Assembly (NCBI RefSeq): GCF_002210345.1
Contig: NZ_MWQI01000003.1
Coordinates: 1 to 64,000, forward strand
Length of the DNA: 64,000 bases
Source: Fibrobacter sp. UWB4
Lineage (GTDB): Bacteria; Fibrobacterota; Fibrobacteria; Fibrobacterales; Fibrobacteraceae
Direction of reading: 5' to 3'
The position numbers and the translations under genes are program-made. The notes under the pieces were generated by a model, which did no database searches, was not told the DNA's origin, and saw only the letters and a program-made list of their open reading frames with translations. Below, piece by piece: positions 16,874 to 63,810 of this stretch. Every line of letters starts with the position of its first letter. Positions within the stretch are counted from its first letter, which is position 1.

Positions 16874-17190
16874 ATATCGACATGCAGACTTACCTGATTT
16901 ACTTGCTCGTAATGGCTGGCGTGACGCTCTTCTTGCGTGCTGTGCCGTTCATTTTGCTGCGCAAGAAGCTCAAGAGCGTGTTCTGGAGTTCGTTCCTCGC
17001 TTACGTGCCATACACTGTGCTCAGTGCGATGACCGTGCCTGCCATCTTCTTTGCGACGGATAGTCGTTTGACGGGCGCCTGCGCGCTTTTTGCTGCCGTG
17101 GTCGCTTCGCTCCTCGGCGGTGGCCTCGTGACCGTTGCTGCGGTTTCGTGCCTTACCGTTCTTGGCGTTGACGGACTCATGCTTCTGTGA
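16870..17190 (+). CDS. azlD: AzlD-family transporter subunit (106 aa)
   Basis: Small partner of AzlC with about four hydrophobic segments. TLFLRAVPFILLRKK near the start and SFLAYVPYTVLSAMTVPAIFF are typical AzlD blocks. GAGG in the end of azlC precedes its ATG, and the 4-bp overlap indicates translational coupling. It ends just before the heptad repeat locus at 17191. Confidence 0.9.
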   Translation: MNIDMQTYLIYLLVMAGVTLFLRAVPFILLRKKLKSVFWSSFLAYVPYTVLSAMTVPAIFFATDSRLTGACALFAAVVASLLGGGLVTVAAVSCLTVLGVDGLMLL

Positions 17191-17268
17191 GTTTGAAGTT
17201 AAGAGTTACTAGAAATGTTTATATCGCAATCTCTAGTAACTACTAACTATTAACTAGTAACTAAGTTC
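17191..17268. repeat. ACTARTA heptad inverted repeat, locus 2
   Basis: The left arm read on the minus strand is CTAGTA-ACTCTTA-ACTTCAA; the right arm on the plus strand (from 17233) is CTAGTA-ACTACTA-ACTATTA-ACTAGTA-ACTAAGT. The arms face each other across about 20 nt. It lies between azlD and the BatA gene. Confidence 0.7.
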
Positions 17269-18481: not shown

Positions 18482-18571
18482 AGACGAGAGAACGGACCTG
18501 AGGTCCTACAGACGAGAGTGGGTAGTGGCGAAGCTGTGTTGTATTTTTCTTTCGCCTTTCGTCTCTCGTCT
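18482..18571. repeat. AGACGAGAG repeat with inverted copy and inner palindrome
   Basis: AGACGAGAG at 18482-18490 and 18510-18518 and its inverse CTCTCGTCT at 18563-18571, with GGACCTGAGGTCC between the direct copies. It fills the gap between the convergent BatA and GGDEF-like genes and may serve as a transcription barrier, though the T-run is weak. Confidence 0.5.
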
Positions 18572-19827: not shown

Positions 19828-19941
19828 TTAGTCAATGGTTGTTGGTCTATGGTCAATAGTTCTTAGAATCGCGTCGTAGGCACCTGACTAAAGGCTAATA
19901 ACTAAAGACTAATGACTAACTACTAATAACCAACAGCTAAC
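19828..19941. repeat. ACTARTA heptad inverted repeat, locus 3
   Basis: The right arm (19886-19941) reads in perfect 7-nt phase: ACTAAAG, GCTAATA, ACTAAAG, ACTAATG, ACTAACT, ACTAATA, ACCAACA, GCTAAC. The left arm (19828-19865) is an imperfect inverse, and about 20 nt separate them. It lies upstream of BatB. Confidence 0.7.
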
Positions 19942-24670: not shown

Positions 24671-24836
24671 CGGCTTTACCGCTCGTTAGTTACTAAGTGC
24701 CTTCGGCACAGTTACTAGTTAATAGTTAGTAGTTACTAGAATTCTTGATATGAAATTCTCTAGTAACTAGTAACTTGGAACTCACAACTGTTGCGAAGCA
24801 ACCTCAGTAACTAGTAACTCGGAACTAGTAACTTGA
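24669..24836. repeat. ACTARTA heptad repeat cluster, locus 5
   Basis: Inverted heptad arms meet at 24741-24760 (AGTTACTAGAATTC against GAAATTCTCTAGTAACT). Three small perfect hairpins are interspersed: AGCGG/CCGCT (24669-24683), GTGCC/GGCAC (24698-24709) and GTTGC/GCAAC (24790-24802). The right side continues with CTAGTA, ACTAGTA, ACTTGGA and ACTCACA units. It fills most of the gap between the methyltransferase and MCE genes. Confidence 0.7.
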
Positions 24837-27911: not shown

Positions 27912-27928
27912 AACATTTTGGTTTGCTG

Positions 27929-30208
27929 ATGAAATTATTTTATTCGTTGTTATTTGTTTGCACTGCTGCTTTGTATGCGCAGGTGGATGGCTCCGTATAT
28001 TCTACGTACAAGTCGCCTTTTGCGGAACAGGAAATGATTGCTCCGGACCAGTTCCAGGATGCGGTTATCCGTGCGGCCCGTGCAAAAAAAACAATGAACG
28101 ATATTTCAATTTCGCAGAACCACCGCGATTTTGCCCGTGCGGCCTATTTCTATTACAGTGGACAGTGGGATAGCGCTTATGTGGCCTATAATTCCTTGCG
28201 CCACCGTGAGCCTGAATTGATGGGGACTGTAGTGCTGCGCATGGCGAAGGCGAACTTTAAACAGGAAAAGTTTGCCAAAATGCGCGAGACGCTGCGCCTT
28301 GAAAAGAGTCTGGAAAACGATAGGGCCTGGCGCGATGCCGCTGACCGCTTGAGAATTGAAGCGACAATGGCTGATTATTCGCTGAACGATGTGGCCCGTG
28401 CGGATTCGTTGATGGTCTACCTCAATGGAAATCCGGATGGCGATGATGTGGATCCGCTCAAGTACCGCTATGCCCGTTATTTGGAAGATTCATACCAGCT
28501 GAAGCAGGCGAAGCGCATGTACATGAAGCTTTTGACGAGCCGTACATCGTACAAGGATTCTGCTTATGCTTCTGTGCGCCGCTTGAGAGAAGTGCTTGGC
28601 GCCCCGGAATCGCTTGCGGAAAAGGTCGCGTATGCGAAGATGGCCTGCACGAAGGACGAAATGAAAAGCTGTCTGGAGTTGCTTGATTCCATCCAGATTC
28701 TGGATGCCCAGCAGGTCCAGAAAAATCCAGCCTCGGCCGTGGTGCTTGACGATCCGGCCTATGCCCGCTTGAAAAAGAGCACTCTGGATTTGAACACCCG
28801 CATTACGCTGTGGGAAAAACGTGCGGCTGCACTCCGCTCGCTGAACCGTAATGCAGATGCTATTGAACAGTACCGCTTCCTGATCGAAAATGTGGACCCG
28901 CGCCCGTCCTGGATCCAGGCGATTCTCAAGCTTTACCGCAAGGAAGCTGCGGGGCTTTTTGACGAAGAAATCCACAGCTATGATTCGCTTTTGCAGGATG
29001 TGAGCCAGTTCAGCAACGAGAATGCGAACAACCTCTGGTTGCGTGGCTTTGAATTTGAACAGAAGCTGATGTATGACAAGGCGATAGAATGCTACAAGAA
29101 GCTCATCCACAAGCGTTTCAAGAGCAATCTGAGGCGCCAGTGGGCGAGATTCCGCATTGGCTACTGCTACTTTAAGCGTGGCATGTGGGTGGAAGCTTCG
29201 GCCTATTTCCGCGATGCGATGAAGGATCCGTTCCTTTGGAGCGGCAGTGCATCCAGGATGTTCCTTGGCGATACGTACATGAAGATGGGCGAGGATTCGC
29301 TTGCCCGTGCAGCCTACCTCGACTGCATCAAGGATTTCCCGCTTTCGTACTATGCCCACCGCAGCCGCACGAAGCTCTTGGATAATCGCCTGCTGCCGTC
29401 GGAAAAGATTCCTTACGCTCATGGAGTGCCGATGTCCCATGCGGCGACAATCGACTGGATCCGCTCCGTAAACAAGCTCGGAAAGCCGGACGCCTCGTAC
29501 AGCAAGGAACGCTACGAACGTATCAAGAAGCTTTTCCTCTACGGATTTGAAGAGGAAGCCTTCAGACTCTATGAAGAGATCAAGAAGAAAAACTTCAAGC
29601 GCATGGATTTCCTGTATGAATACGGGAAGCTGTTCTACGAAATGGGCGAAACGGCTGCCGGTTACAGGCTTGCGCGCCAGTTCCAGGCGAAGATGGATAG
29701 GCGCTTGTTTATGTCTCCTCCGCTTGACGTGCTTCATTACCTCTTCCCGGTACCGTATGCTGACCCTGTGGTTTACTATTCGGGCACGAGCATTGACCCG
29801 TTCTTTGTCTATAGCGTGATGCGCCAGGAATCCATTTTCGATTTCCAGATTACATCGCCTGCGGGCGCCTGCGGCCTTTTGCAGATTATGCCTGCGACGG
29901 GCAAGATGCTTGCCGACAAGGAGGAAATCTCGGACTTTAATCCGAAGCGCCTGTACAATGCCTACATGAACATCCGCCTGGGTATCCGCTACCTTGTGGA
30001 CCTCAAGGACGAATACAAAAACGACTACATGTACGTGCTTTGCAACTACAATGCGGGCCCGAAGCCGACAAGGCGCTGGCAGTCCGAAAGCGAAGGCCTC
30101 CCGTGGGATTTGCGTGTCGAAGACATCAGCTACTGGGAAACCCGCGACTACGTCAAGCGCGTCATGGGAAATTACTGGATCTATCAGGAAATATATCGAG
30201 ATAAGTAG
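27929..30208 (+). CDS. Soluble lytic transglycosylase-like protein with tetratricopeptide-like repeats (759 aa)
   Basis: Exported murein hydrolase that cleaves the MurNAc-GlcNAc bond to form anhydro ends. Signal peptide (cleavage near ALYA-QVD), then about 600 residues of helical repeats of the Slt70 superhelix type (AIECYKKLIHKRFKSNLRRQ, FRDAMKDPFLWSGSASRMFL), and a C-terminal SLT domain from about 610. The catalytic Glu is in VMRQESIFDF near residue 633, followed by the conserved GLLQIMPATGK, YNAYMNIRLGIRYL and CNYNAGP. An ATG in frame with and 6 nt after a TTG marks the start. It may be co-transcribed with ptsHI. Its stop codon lies in a heptad arm. Confidence 0.92.
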   Translation: MKLFYSLLFVCTAALYAQVDGSVYSTYKSPFAEQEMIAPDQFQDAVIRAARAKKTMNDISISQNHRDFARAAYFYYSGQWDSAYVAYNSLRHREPELMGTVVLRMAKANFKQEKFAKMRETLRLEKSLENDRAWRDAADRLRIEATMADYSLNDVARADSLMVYLNGNPDGDDVDPLKYRYARYLEDSYQLKQAKRMYMKLLTSRTSYKDSAYASVRRLREVLGAPESLAEKVAYAKMACTKDEMKSCLELLDSIQILDAQQVQKNPASAVVLDDPAYARLKKSTLDLNTRITLWEKRAAALRSLNRNADAIEQYRFLIENVDPRPSWIQAILKLYRKEAAGLFDEEIHSYDSLLQDVSQFSNENANNLWLRGFEFEQKLMYDKAIECYKKLIHKRFKSNLRRQWARFRIGYCYFKRGMWVEASAYFRDAMKDPFLWSGSASRMFLGDTYMKMGEDSLARAAYLDCIKDFPLSYYAHRSRTKLLDNRLLPSEKIPYAHGVPMSHAATIDWIRSVNKLGKPDASYSKERYERIKKLFLYGFEEEAFRLYEEIKKKNFKRMDFLYEYGKLFYEMGETAAGYRLARQFQAKMDRRLFMSPPLDVLHYLFPVPYADPVVYYSGTSIDPFFVYSVMRQESIFDFQITSPAGACGLLQIMPATGKMLADKEEISDFNPKRLYNAYMNIRLGIRYLVDLKDEYKNDYMYVLCNYNAGPKPTRRWQSESEGLPWDLRVEDISYWETRDYVKRVMGNYWIYQEIYRDK

Positions 30209-30237
30209 TTACTAGTTATGAGTTACTAGTTACTAGA
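30204..30237. repeat. Heptad inverted arm, left side of the four-helix gene (locus 6)
   Basis: Read on the minus strand: CTAGTA, ACTAGTA, ACTCATA, ACTAGTA, ACTACTT. It overlaps the stop codon of the transglycosylase gene and faces the arm at 30608-30641. Confidence 0.7.
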
Positions 30238-30247
30238 TTTTTTGATT

Positions 30248-30601
30248 ATGGCTGTTTCGAATTATCAAAATTTAATTGTTTGGCGTAAAGCGATGGATTT
30301 GGCTAAGGAAGTTTATGCTATAGTAAAGTTACTTCCCAAAGAAGAGCTTTTTGCTTTGTCAGATCAAATCAGAAGAGCTGTTGTATCAATACCATCTAAT
30401 ATTGCAGAAGGCTGTGGACGTGAATCTAAAAGTCAAATGATGAATTTTCTGAGAATCGCTAAGGGGTCTGCAGCAGAATTAGAGACTCAGTTATTATTAT
30501 GCAAAGAAATCGGATATATTGATGAAATAAAATTAAAAATGCCATTAATTCTTTTAGATGAAATTAGCCGAATGATTCGTTCTCTTATGCAAAAGGGATG
30601 A
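30248..30601 (+). CDS. Four-helix-bundle (S23/Avd-like) protein (117 aa)
   Basis: Small all-helical protein of the TIGR02436/S23 superfamily. Diagnostic blocks: YQNLIVWRKAMDLAKEVY at the start, LSDQIRRAVVSIPSNIAEG, and NFLRIAKGSAAELETQL. Relatives are encoded as intervening sequences in 23S rRNA genes and, as Avd, beside diversity-generating retroelements, where they assist the reverse transcriptase; many others stand alone with unknown role. Base composition is more AT-rich than the neighbours. It is enclosed by inverted heptad arms only about 10 nt from each end. No reverse transcriptase is nearby. ATG chosen over an upstream TTG. Confidence 0.88.
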   Translation: MAVSNYQNLIVWRKAMDLAKEVYAIVKLLPKEELFALSDQIRRAVVSIPSNIAEGCGRESKSQMMNFLRIAKGSAAELETQLLLCKEIGYIDEIKLKMPLILLDEISRMIRSLMQKG

Positions 30602-30607
30602 ATTTTC

Positions 30608-30641
30608 TAGTAACTATAAACTAGTAACTAGTAACTTACTA
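30608..30641. repeat. Heptad inverted arm, right side of the four-helix gene (locus 7)
   Basis: CTAGTA, ACTATAA, ACTAGTA, ACTAGTA, ACTTACT. Inverse of the arm at 30204-30237. It abuts the ATG of the next gene at 30641. Confidence 0.7.
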
Positions 30642-31477
30642 TGCTCTTTCTTCTTCTTACCATTGGTCCTGCGTTTTTATTTGCTTGTGGAAACATCCTG
30701 GAGAAATCTGGGGTGTCCACTGTTGGCAAGCGCACGGGCGGCACATCGAATCCTTGGGAATTTTTCAAGGGCATTGTTACGAATAAATTTTGGTGGCTTG
30801 GAATTGCTTGTTCCGGGCTTGCAACGCTTGGCTATTACATCGCTATGGCGCAGTACGATCTTTCGCAAGTGCAGCCGATGATGGTCCTGAATCCGGTACT
30901 GACGGCGCTTATGGGGTTCTGTATCTTGAAGGAAGTTTTGACCAAGCGCATTGTGGTCGCGATTTGCTTTGTCGTGGCAGGCCTCCTTTACTCTGTTGAA
31001 AATCTCGGTGAATCGACTGCGGTGCAGAATGTCGGAACGCTCTGGCTGTATGCGGGCGGGCTTAGCTTTGCAACGCTGATTGCGCACCTCTGGGTGAAAG
31101 ACCGCGAAATGGTGGACTCGCTCATCATGGGAGTTGGCTTTGGACTCTCGGCGGCTTTTTACAAGAGCCTCGCGATGGATTTTGACCTCGACAATATCGA
31201 ATTTTCGTCGGTGGCGAACCTGCTTGTGGATTTCAGGACGCTTGGCTATATTGCTACTTACGGTATCGCTTTTTTGTATTCGCAGGTATCGTTCTCGCGC
31301 GGGCGTGCGCTGTTCATTATCCCGTTTAGCGCTGCTGTCGGTGCTGCGGTTCCGACGCTTGCAGGTGCGCTCGTTTTCTACGAAGCGTTCCCGATGGGCA
31401 AGGTGGTTTCTGTATCGCTCGTGCTGATTGGCGCCTGCCTCTTTATTATTCGCAGACCGCGTAGGAAAAAATCCTGA
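30641..31477 (+). CDS. EamA/DMT-superfamily membrane transporter (278 aa)
   Basis: About ten hydrophobic segments in two repeats, with typical DMT features: a Pro in LSQVQPMMVLNPVLTALMG followed by FCILKEVLTKR in the first half, and SFSRGRALFIIPFSAAVGAAVPTLAG with a second FYEAFPMGK in the second half. A metabolite exporter or uptake role is likely, but the substrate cannot be inferred. The ATG immediately follows the heptad repeat and lacks an SD. Confidence 0.8.
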   Translation: MLFLLLTIGPAFLFACGNILEKSGVSTVGKRTGGTSNPWEFFKGIVTNKFWWLGIACSGLATLGYYIAMAQYDLSQVQPMMVLNPVLTALMGFCILKEVLTKRIVVAICFVVAGLLYSVENLGESTAVQNVGTLWLYAGGLSFATLIAHLWVKDREMVDSLIMGVGFGLSAAFYKSLAMDFDLDNIEFSSVANLLVDFRTLGYIATYGIAFLYSQVSFSRGRALFIIPFSAAVGAAVPTLAGALVFYEAFPMGKVVSVSLVLIGACLFIIRRPRRKKS

Positions 31478-61315: not shown

Positions 61316-63613
61316 ATGAGAAAATTTATAATACCGCTATTTGCATTTACTACGTCGGTTTTTGCCTATCTTCCTGGCGAATCAGGTTTTGTTTCACTTG
61401 ATGGTGGCCATGGCGTTTTCGGGAACCCGGCCGGGCTTTCGGCTCTGGATTCCAAGGGGGCGCTTCTCACTTACCAATATGACGACGGCATTACCGAACT
61501 TCGCGTGGGCGGCAATCTGGACCGCTTTGGTGCGGGTTTTGAGTACCGCTTTGACGGCAAGGGAATGGATGAGTCCCGCTGGAATCTGACCCACGGATTT
61601 CCGCTTTTTGACCGTAGCGTGTTCTGGGGCGGTCGCGTCACGGCGTTTCGCAGCGCGGATTTTAAAGGAACGGAGTGGACCTATTCTCCGGGTATATTGA
61701 TTCGCCCTTTCACCATGCTCTCGCTGGGGTATTCCTGTGAGAACTTGCTGTACGTTGGCCCGTCTTCGATGGAACGTATCCACAATGCTGGTGCCACGAT
61801 CCGTATGGGTGATTTTCTCAATGTGAGTTACGATGTCGAAAACTGGAAAGAGCATCGATTGCTTCTGGAACTTTCGCTTTACGGTTACCGTTTTGGATTC
61901 AAGGTCCCGCTCTACGGCGATGACGATGAATATACGCTTACTCTTTCTACTTCGTTTGGCGGGCATGTCGATGCATCCCTTAAGATCTTCGATGATTTCT
62001 TGCCGAAGGGCGGTAGCATAGGGTTTCATGCAGCCCGCAATCCGCGCTCGTCGCATGTGGGGCAGATTGTGCGTGTGCCGCTCAACATGGACGTGACCGA
62101 AGTCGAAAAGAAATTCCTGTTCTTCGAGCCGACTTCCATTGGCCTGATGAAGGTTCGAAACTTGTTCGAATATTTGCTCAGGGATCCGTCTGCAGGGCTT
62201 GTTGTGCTTGACTTCTCGGGCTATAAGGGCAATATGGCGATTTCTGAAGAGATCAATCGCTATGTCAAGAAAATTAAGGCTCGCGGCGGTCTTGTGATTG
62301 CCTACATGGATGATGTGCGTCCATCGGATTTGATGGCGGCTGCAAATGTGGACCGCATCGTTGTCGAACCTTCGGCTCATTTTACCTGGCTTGGGATTGG
62401 CGGCGGAATTGTATTCTACAAGGGACTTTTGGATAAATTAGGTGTCAAGGTGGAATTTTTGCGCCATGGGGCCTACAAGTCTGCGGTAGAACCTTATATG
62501 GAAGATTCCTTGTCTGTGAATGCACGTAGCAACATGGAATCGCTATATAAGGATCTTTGGGAAATTCTCCGTATGCGGGTTGCTGAGCGGATAAAGACGG
62601 GATCTTCGACTGAGAGCCTGAAAATGCTTGATTCGCTTGCGCAAAAGCCGGTCATCACCGCGATTGGGGCGAAAAAGGCTGGGCTGGTAGATACTTTGCT
62701 TTACATTGACCAGGTTCCTGCTTACGCCCTAAAAACTTTTTTCGATATGGATGCCCCTCCTCATGTGGGCTTTAGGACGTGGTCTCCGTCGAACATGAAA
62801 ATATTTGACGAAAGCTGGAAACATAGGGCTAAGGTTGCGCTCCTGAACATCAATGGAACAATTGATTCGCGCATGGGCGAGGTGGTTCTTGATAATTTGC
62901 GCCGTCTCCCCGGAATGGGCGTGAAGGCTTTGCTTGTGCGGATTTCTTCGCCGGGGGGAGATGCGATTGCTTCGGATAAAATCTGGGGCGCGCTCAAGAA
63001 CTTGAAGCGGTTTGACATTCCTATCGTGGCAAGTGTCGGAAACGTTGGTGCTTCGGGCGCCTACTACATTGCCTGCGGTGCGGATAAGATTGTTGCAGAA
63101 CCTTTTGCTATTGTCGGGAGTATTGGAATTTACGGTGGAAAAATTGACGCTTCTGGCTTGATGCAAAAAATCGGGTTAAAAACCGAATCGGTGAAGACGA
63201 ATGATTATGCTGACGCGCGTTCGTTCACTCGCCCGTGGACTGATACCGAAAAGGCTGCGCTCCAGGAATATATGGATGATTTCTATGACCGCTTTACAGG
63301 AGTCGTGTCGCAGGCGACGGGAATTGACCAGGCTGTTGTGGATTCCGCGTATGGTGGCGGTCGCGTGATGGTCGGCTGGAAGGCTAAGGAGGCCGGGCTT
63401 GTGCAAAGCTTGGGCGGATTTGACGATGCCCTTGACGAAGTCCGTGAACTTGCCGGCATCCCGAAGTCTACGGATATCGAACTGATGCAGTTGAATACGG
63501 ATGAGTCCTTTGTTGAATCGTTTGTGAATGCAAAATCAATGGGAGATTTTATCCGCGACATAGAACGCACACAGTTCTGGGCGATAGAACCTGCTTTAGT
63601 TAATGGCTATTAG
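61316..63613 (+). CDS. sppA: SppA-type signal peptide peptidase with N-terminal barrel-like extension (765 aa)
   Basis: The C-terminal ~500 residues form a duplicated S49 protease as in the 67-kDa SppA. The catalytic Lys lies in [12 protein letters not shown] near residue 386, and the Ser in [13 protein letters not shown] near 578. Preceding this, after a cleavable signal ([11 protein letters not shown]), about 230 residues of alternating strands ([34 protein letters not shown]) look like part of an outer-membrane barrel rather than the single helix of SppA. ATG 61316 lacks an SD but has TATTAT 13 nt upstream, and fits the signal peptide. The substrate is unknown. Confidence 0.87.
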
Positions 63614-63810
63614 TCAATGGTCAGTAGCTATGTTGTTCTCGTGCATTTTGTCATCCTGAGCGAAGCCGTTAGGCGAAGTCGAAGGATCTAGTAATTTTTT
63701 AGAGGAATATAACTGGATCCTTCCACTTTCAGTGTCAGGATGACGTTGTAAAGAAATTGCTATTAATTAACTATTGACTAATGACTAAATACTAATGACT
63801 ATAGACTAGA
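63603..63810. repeat. Nested repeat: heptad arms around a TCATCCTGAG palindrome (locus 8)
   Basis: The outer left arm (63603-63637) and outer right arm (63768-63810; ACTATTG, ACTAATG, ACTAAAT, ACTAATG, ACTATAG units) face each other. Inside lies a long imperfect inverted repeat, TCATCCTGAG ... GGATCTAG against CTGGATCC ... CAGGATGAC (63650-63744). It fills the gap between sppA and the next gene. Confidence 0.65.

Follow-up and report, generated by a model that had tools for sequence, protein, structure and literature searches.

Why does a small gene in a Fibrobacter genome lie between two opposing arrays of seven-nucleotide repeats, fitted tightly between two host genes, and does the protein that it encodes belong to these arrays? 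We analyzed this locus within a stretch of 64,000 nucleotides of Fibrobacter sp. UWB4 (the window; its genome is G000 below). The locus is laid out as follows:

27923..30208, + strand: upstream host gene, lytic transglycosylase-like (named by reading the sequence, with no family search)
about 30206..30236, + strand: left arm, 4.4 heptads of TAGTTAC
30248..30601, + strand: S23 / 23S_rRNA_IVP four-helix-bundle gene, 117 aa, from the ATG at 30248 to a TGA (PF05635, 133 bits)
about 30607..30636, - strand: right arm, inverted, 4.3 heptads (CTAGTAA on the + strand)
30641..31477, + strand: downstream host gene, EamA-like transporter (named in the same way)

The opposing heptad arms that the preliminary description placed around the S23 gene are real. 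Their inverted pairing spans 31 nt on each side (30207-30237 and 30606-30636) and is 87% complementary, and the TAGTTAC heptad pattern has 21 matches in the window, compared to 0.12 expected. The left arm opens with the TAG stop codon of the upstream host gene (30206-30208), and the downstream host gene starts 4 nt past the right arm. The gene lies 11 nt from the left arm and 5 nt from the right arm, where about 10 nt on either side had initially been given, and it is, as had been noted, more AT-rich than its neighbors (GC content of 34% vs 52% and 51%). Folded as RNA, the arms pair into a stem that holds the S23 gene in its loop (z -3.5). The site lies between two protein-coding genes and outside rRNA, and a comparison of the window with Rfam returned no match to any known RNA family. 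We rejected a chance inverted repeat on the basis of the excess of heptad matches, the complementarity of each S23 gene's own flanks, and the rarity of such arms around control ORFs. Elsewhere in the window, at 2568-2597, an AT-rich spacer holds a degenerate TAGTTAC-like array that may be an old remnant.

To which family does the protein belong? It scores 133 bits against PF05635 (23S_rRNA_IVP; cut-off of 33.8) and falls under the cut-offs of the Avd model (33 vs 80 bits) and the bAvd model (31 vs 40 bits). Because of these low Avd and bAvd scores, S23 is the right family name and Avd only a structural cousin, so that the original label of an 'Avd/S23-like' gene is half retained. An AF2 model of the protein (pLDDT 95) adopts the four-helix-bundle fold, with 2gsc (TM 0.92, rmsd 0.8) and 2rld as best structural matches and Avd next (TM about 0.79). 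The structure 2gsc (XCC0516) has been described as five four-helix bundles in one assembly. We infer that S23 is a ring-shaped nucleic-acid binder. To our knowledge, it contains no recognized catalytic domain and no known nuclease or recombinase domain. A PADLOC search did not identify it as a known defense protein, and a PHROGs search returned Avd as the sole annotation. S23 is a widespread family with two solved structures and no assigned function.

The gene is not the lone representative of its family in this genome, as had been stated: G000 encodes one more PF05635 gene, which also lies between inverted arms but with the heptad GTAGACA/TAGGAAG, unlike the TAGTTAC of the window. Among the relatives, nearly all S23 genes have inverted heptad arms, with a heptad that varies by element. 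Beyond the relatives, we gathered at least 80 loci in other phyla and another 52 in viral contigs; a conserved S23 peptide served as query in the genome scan, which therefore under-represents divergent subfamilies. A 7-nt periodicity (score of at least 12 on at least one side) was found for 71% of 167 S23 genes and for 3% of control segments, and the runner-up spacing in these genes was 8 nt (5-7% per side), with 9 nt in a few. The S23 gene of Flavobacterium piscinae (L082), for example, is flanked by 8-nt rather than 7-nt repeats. The complementarity of the flanks averaged 15.2 for own pairs and 7.5 for mismatched pairs. In a non-redundant set of 123 S23 genes spanning many phyla, 57% are enclosed by complementary arms, vs 2.9% of 625 control ORFs, so that the check proposed earlier, whether other S23 genes lie within heptad arms, has a positive answer here as well as in the second G000 copy. 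Under relaxed thresholds, 106 of the 167 S23 genes have both heptads and complementary flanks, 48 have one of these signs, and 13 have neither. Most of these 13 retain visible remnants, with two distant phage proteins standing out as clear exceptions. These counts strongly support the original suggestion that the gene belongs to a heptad element. Plasmid copies are included: two from cyanobacteria have clear heptad arms, and one from Gemmatirosa has a clear right array and an unclear left side. The median arm length across S23 loci is 28 nt, and the number of heptads per arm peaks at 4-5, with a range of 3 to over 10. Because of this spread, the correspondence between five heptads and a pentamer is only suggestive, and we rejected a strict rule of five heptads per pentamer.

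Although the heptad varies, it does so within a common signature. Phase alignment of 101 non-redundant loci gave NNNTNRG on the upstream strand, with the last G present in 96% of the loci and the purine in 91% (A 64%, G 27%), and with the other positions variable. The information content of this signature is 3.0 bits, and none of 15 column-shuffled controls exceeded 2.29. Heptad similarity is positively correlated with protein similarity (Mantel r 0.24, p 0.0005): the heptad is common to 31% of pairs at 60-75% protein identity and to 0-2% of pairs below 50%. This correlation fits either recognition of the heptad by the protein or joint inheritance of the two.

The arms are placed with respect to host genes in a consistent manner. 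Where the upstream neighbor is co-directional, the arm begins a median of 3.5 nt past its stop codon. The reconstructed insertion gaps are 18.5 nt (vs 45 nt in the background), and 4 of 84 elements lie in divergent, promoter-bearing gaps. Within operons, 46 elements are in sense and 24 in antisense orientation (roughly 2:1). We found that 58% of the stops adjoining arms are TAG, compared to 24% in control genes; when counting only stops outside the arm, the share of TAG is 50% (p 0.0003). Among arrays that follow a TAG, 22 out of 33 have their purine-G in register with it (1 in 7 expected), as do 13 out of 25 gene-less arrays, with the proviso that some in-register stops lie within the array and are hence trivially in register. 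The junction of the element is at the host stop codon, the AG of which could be of host or element origin, as read from simple stop-to-stop ORF calls and from relatives that are diverged (dS near 1).

Does this placement result from insertion? Following the earlier proposal to look for orthologous empty sites, we found true empty alleles at three Fibrobacter loci. Sites that are empty in some genomes are filled in others, in each case at a stop codon and with S23 genes and heptads that differ. At the window site, the two host genes of empty relatives are separated by a gap of usually 3 nt. The site is occupied by the TAGTTAC-S23 element in G000 and G018, by another S23 with other heptads in G002 and G015, and by gene-less hairpins with still other heptads in G008 and G010. 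The S23 found in this gap at G002 C6:15929 and G015 C9:35007 (L202 and L205) belongs to a second subfamily, of the SGTSIGAN type. Because most outgroups are empty at this site, insertion is the simplest polarity, and a perfect empty allele in G001 suggests that loss or replacement may occur too. No target-site duplication was seen at the window site in the comparison of G001 with G018, although these relatives are too diverged (dS near 1) for a firm reading. Between lysS and lolC, the gap is 3-6 nt in most empty alleles, and the filled alleles comprise three S23/heptad types and one gene-less hairpin. There, an inverted copy of the host 3' end (e.g. GAAGTCTAGCagaGCTAGACTTC) precedes the heptad arm in G005 (L042), G009 (L045), G018 (L040), and G023 (L053), which looks like fold-back copying. 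At the third site, after a FloA-like gene (again a name from sequence reading), the empty gap is 3-5 nt and the fillings are of four heptad types, with S23 genes from two or more clades; most empty alleles have a TAA stop here, and the filled alleles have TAG. Neither of the two situations that the preliminary description had named as contradicting it, gene copies without arms and the lack of an empty-site allele, was what we found.

In addition to the S23 locus, the window holds arrays that enclose no S23 gene:

17186..17263, unstranded: gene-less TAGTTAC hairpin with a 20-nt spacer; site without hairpin in G001 and G013
18482..18571, unstranded: gene-less AGACGAG-type arms; present in G001
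19828..19941, unstranded: gene-less TTAGTCA-type hairpin; absent in G013, with a TAGTTAC hairpin instead in G018
24690..24833, unstranded: gene-less TAGTTAC hairpin with mini-hairpins within the arms; site without hairpin in G001, G013, and G018
63596..63808, unstranded: TTAGTCA-type arms around a palindromic GTCATCCTGAGCG repeat

The hairpins at 17186-17263 and 24690-24833, and others elsewhere in G000, confirm the earlier impression of empty versions with a spacer of about 20 nt. Such gene-less hairpins are polymorphic (present or absent) among relatives. TAGTTAC doublets number 84 in G000, 252 in G018, whose S23 arms are TAGTTAC like those of the window element, and zero in many relatives. 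The AGACGAG arms of the gene-less copy at 18482..18571 recur around the S23 gene of G001 at lysS-lolC. Across 39 genomes, CAGCTATCAGCTAT was counted 78 and 40 times in the genomes of L070 and L091, whose S23 carries CAGCTATCAGCTAT, 10 times in that of L092 (which has CAGCTAT in part of its arms), and between 0 and 6 times in each remaining genome. The reversed control pattern of CAGCTATCAGCTAT is the complement of the L083 heptad and has 70 copies in the L083 genome; it is also frequent in G047 and G066. Overall, the tested heptads are dispersed as gene-less hairpins mainly where the genome's S23 carries the same heptad. Hairpins in G000 also carry the heptads of its second S23 and those of S23 elements known only in relatives, and G011 and G013 contain many hairpins in genomes where an S23 gene was not detected; hairpins can outlive the S23 gene. 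Because the gene-less arrays are scattered and come and go among relatives, this system looks like an overlooked mobile element. The gene-bearing copies of this element code for S23 only, with no transposase partner inside. As for the origin of the gene-less hairpins, internal deletion of the S23 element proved a weak explanation.

Several smaller features accompany the arrays. Mini-hairpins such as CGGCTTCGCCG and GTGCCTTCGGCAC lie between the host stop and the array, or within the arms, at 24675-24709 of the window and at other loci. The palindromic GTCATCCTGAGCG...CGAAGGATC repeat is bordered or enclosed by heptad arms also near positions 857331, 862165, and 960131 of G000 C1, and for 5 out of the 26 copies found in 384 kb of G000, a heptad array is no more than 120 nt away. 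At G000 C1:902593-903396, a gene of ~750 nt has a TAGTTAC hairpin at either end.

Both the protein and the arms are conserved. For the S23 gene at the window site, the comparison of G000 with G018 gave a dN/dS of 0.09 at a dS of 1.10 (0.97 for the neighboring host gene), and other same-site S23 ortholog pairs gave mostly 0.03-0.12, with one very recent pair being uninformative. With arm segments located by their shared motif, 60 out of 61 arm positions are kept between G000 and G018 at the window site, and 67 out of 67 at lysS-lolC in the comparison with G009, compared to ~46% identity expected for neutral sequence over the same divergence. This conservation in the face of saturating silent sites suggests that arms and protein are both maintained. 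For the arms, selection is one explanation, and homogenization by the dispersed copies is another.

We propose, with confidence evenly balanced, that this locus represents a widespread selfish S23-heptad element, in which S23 would bind its own heptads and thereby aid spread or persistence. The S23 ring, a pentamer in solved relatives, would bind the purine-G heptads of its own element, possibly one per subunit, and this binding to the arms may help both the element and its gene-less derivatives to spread or persist. The role of mobility factor that had been suggested for S23 is plausible. Because S23 has no catalytic domain known to us, the genome has no reverse transcriptase (a search of G000 for RVT_1 gave no match), and Y1 transposases fail to track the element, we assign DNA cutting and joining to host enzymes, which would be the weakest step of the mechanism. 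Upon transcription, the arms would pair into a long stem that has the S23 gene as its loop, which is also the layout of rRNA intervening sequences (IVSs). The location between operon genes together with this RNA stem suggests cutting of the transcripts by RNase III, which may release the stem-loop as it does for rRNA IVSs (PMC4990558) and would thereby render insertion between operon genes harmless. The rRNA IVSs may then be the same element landed in rRNA. We infer this link, since no S23 gene inside 23S rRNA was found among the sampled loci in which to look for heptads in IVS stems. A much broader version, in which S23 elements form a bacterium-wide, transposase-free mobile class, we consider doubtful. 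Here, each subunit of a five-subunit ring would take one purine-G heptad, arrays would be added at host stops in register with the host purine-G by templated extension or joining, and orphan heptamer repeats (cyanobacteria, Beggiatoa, Geobacter, and Xanthomonas) as well as rRNA IVSs would be its products.

Several points weigh against a selfish S23-heptad element: the correlation between heptad and protein can arise from joint inheritance, neither a target-site duplication nor an exact breakpoint could be read, S23 has no recognized catalytic domain to which the chemistry could be assigned, and G011 and G013 have their many hairpins without a detected S23 gene. The last of these would fit S23 as a passenger or beneficiary: something else, such as a recombinase of the host or of an element, would move the hairpins, and S23 would be cargo that binds the RNA of the arms, either to regulate itself or as an RNA chaperone, and that protects the hairpin or the transcript of the host. 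Arms that enclose other sequence too, such as the GTCATCCTGAGCG repeats, and the lack of a catalytic domain point in the same direction, but control genes are rarely found within such arms (2.9%) and the heptad tracks the genome's S23, and we consider this explanation possible although somewhat unlikely. Alternatively, the hairpins might arise at the ends of genes through replication slippage or template switching and then be retained for a role as terminators or processing signals, with S23 being separate and tolerant of them. We disfavor this as improbable: while the arrays do lie directly after stop codons, and inverted host 3'-end copies and mini-hairpins do occur beside some arms, slippage does not account for one heptad at tens of unrelated sites per genome that matches that genome's S23, for left and right arms that agree with each other and not with other loci, or for arms around S23 and not around other genes.

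The Avd fold of S23, the RNA stem formed by the arms, and the sense-strand bias in operons (46 vs 24) would all suit an element that acts at the RNA level, with the released stem-loop RNA being reverse-transcribed into DNA and S23 in the role that Avd has in diversity-generating retroelements. Given that neither G000 nor most S23-bearing Fibrobacter genomes searched have a reverse transcriptase domain, and that about one-third of the elements between co-directional genes are antisense, this is very improbable. Members of the IS200/IS605-REP/RAYT group have hairpin ends and no obvious target duplication, and the elements described here are similar; G000 also encodes two Y1 genes, so that a Y1 transposase might mobilize the hairpins in trans. 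However, Y1 is absent from G002, G005, G007, G009, G010, G011, and G013, all of which carry S23 elements or hairpins. We rejected the Y1 transposase as mobilizer because its presence does not track the elements, and regard this type of mobilization as extremely improbable.

How does the proposed selfish S23-heptad element relate to known systems? The closest described system is the S23 IVS of 23S rRNA, known for example from Coxiella burnetii, where an inverted-repeat stem of ~28 bp closes the loop that holds the S23 ORF (PMC4990558). Both have an S23 ORF in an inverted-repeat stem and a total size of about 430 nt, and the IVS is likewise regarded as selfish; the element here differs in being intergenic, in having arms of tandem heptads, and in having gene-less copies dispersed through the genome. 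In our best reading, it is the intergenic counterpart of rRNA IVSs. It resembles REP/REPIN-RAYT systems and MITEs in having one gene between terminal hairpin repeats and many gene-less copies per genome, and has the MITE traits of terminal inverted repeats, many gene-less copies, and insertion polymorphism. Unlike these, it has no transposase, and its repeats are heptad arrays whose sequence changes by element. With Avd of diversity-generating retroelements, a small accessory nucleic-acid protein, S23 has the four-helix fold in common, but the genome has no reverse transcriptase and the Avd model score is under its cut-off.

The arms also resemble the STRRs of cyanobacteria and TAACTGA-type repeats, which are tandem 7-nt units across many intergenic places. 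In the passages that we draw on, such dispersed heptanucleotide repeats comprise TAACTGA of Beggiatoaceae, often just before start codons (PMC4679880), GGACCGG and MTYCTGA of Geobacter (PMC2700814), and GGGAATC of Xanthomonas and Nostoc (PMC4692102). Unlike the element here, they are described there as regulatory or unexplained, and one of these passages suggests that the mobile part is an unknown protein that binds the repeats (PMC4679880). No link to S23 was found in the passages and terms searched of these three papers, and our literature search, which extended to sources other than subscription papers and preprints, found none between S23 and heptads. Heptamer repeats and S23 IVSs have each been reported on their own, and a link between them through S23 and its heptads is proposed here. 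With a defined nucleic-acid target, the function of S23 becomes directly testable. If our proposal is true, it would give one origin to the heptamer repeats of cyanobacteria, Beggiatoa, and Geobacter and to the S23 ORFs in rRNA IVSs, and would extend the known mobile elements by one that moves with no recognized transposase; if S23 were shown to drive the movement, this would be a new class of mobile elements. Finally, we observed that two of the published repeats, TAACTGA and MTYCTGA, when read on the complementary strand, give heptads that conform to the NNNTNRG signature.
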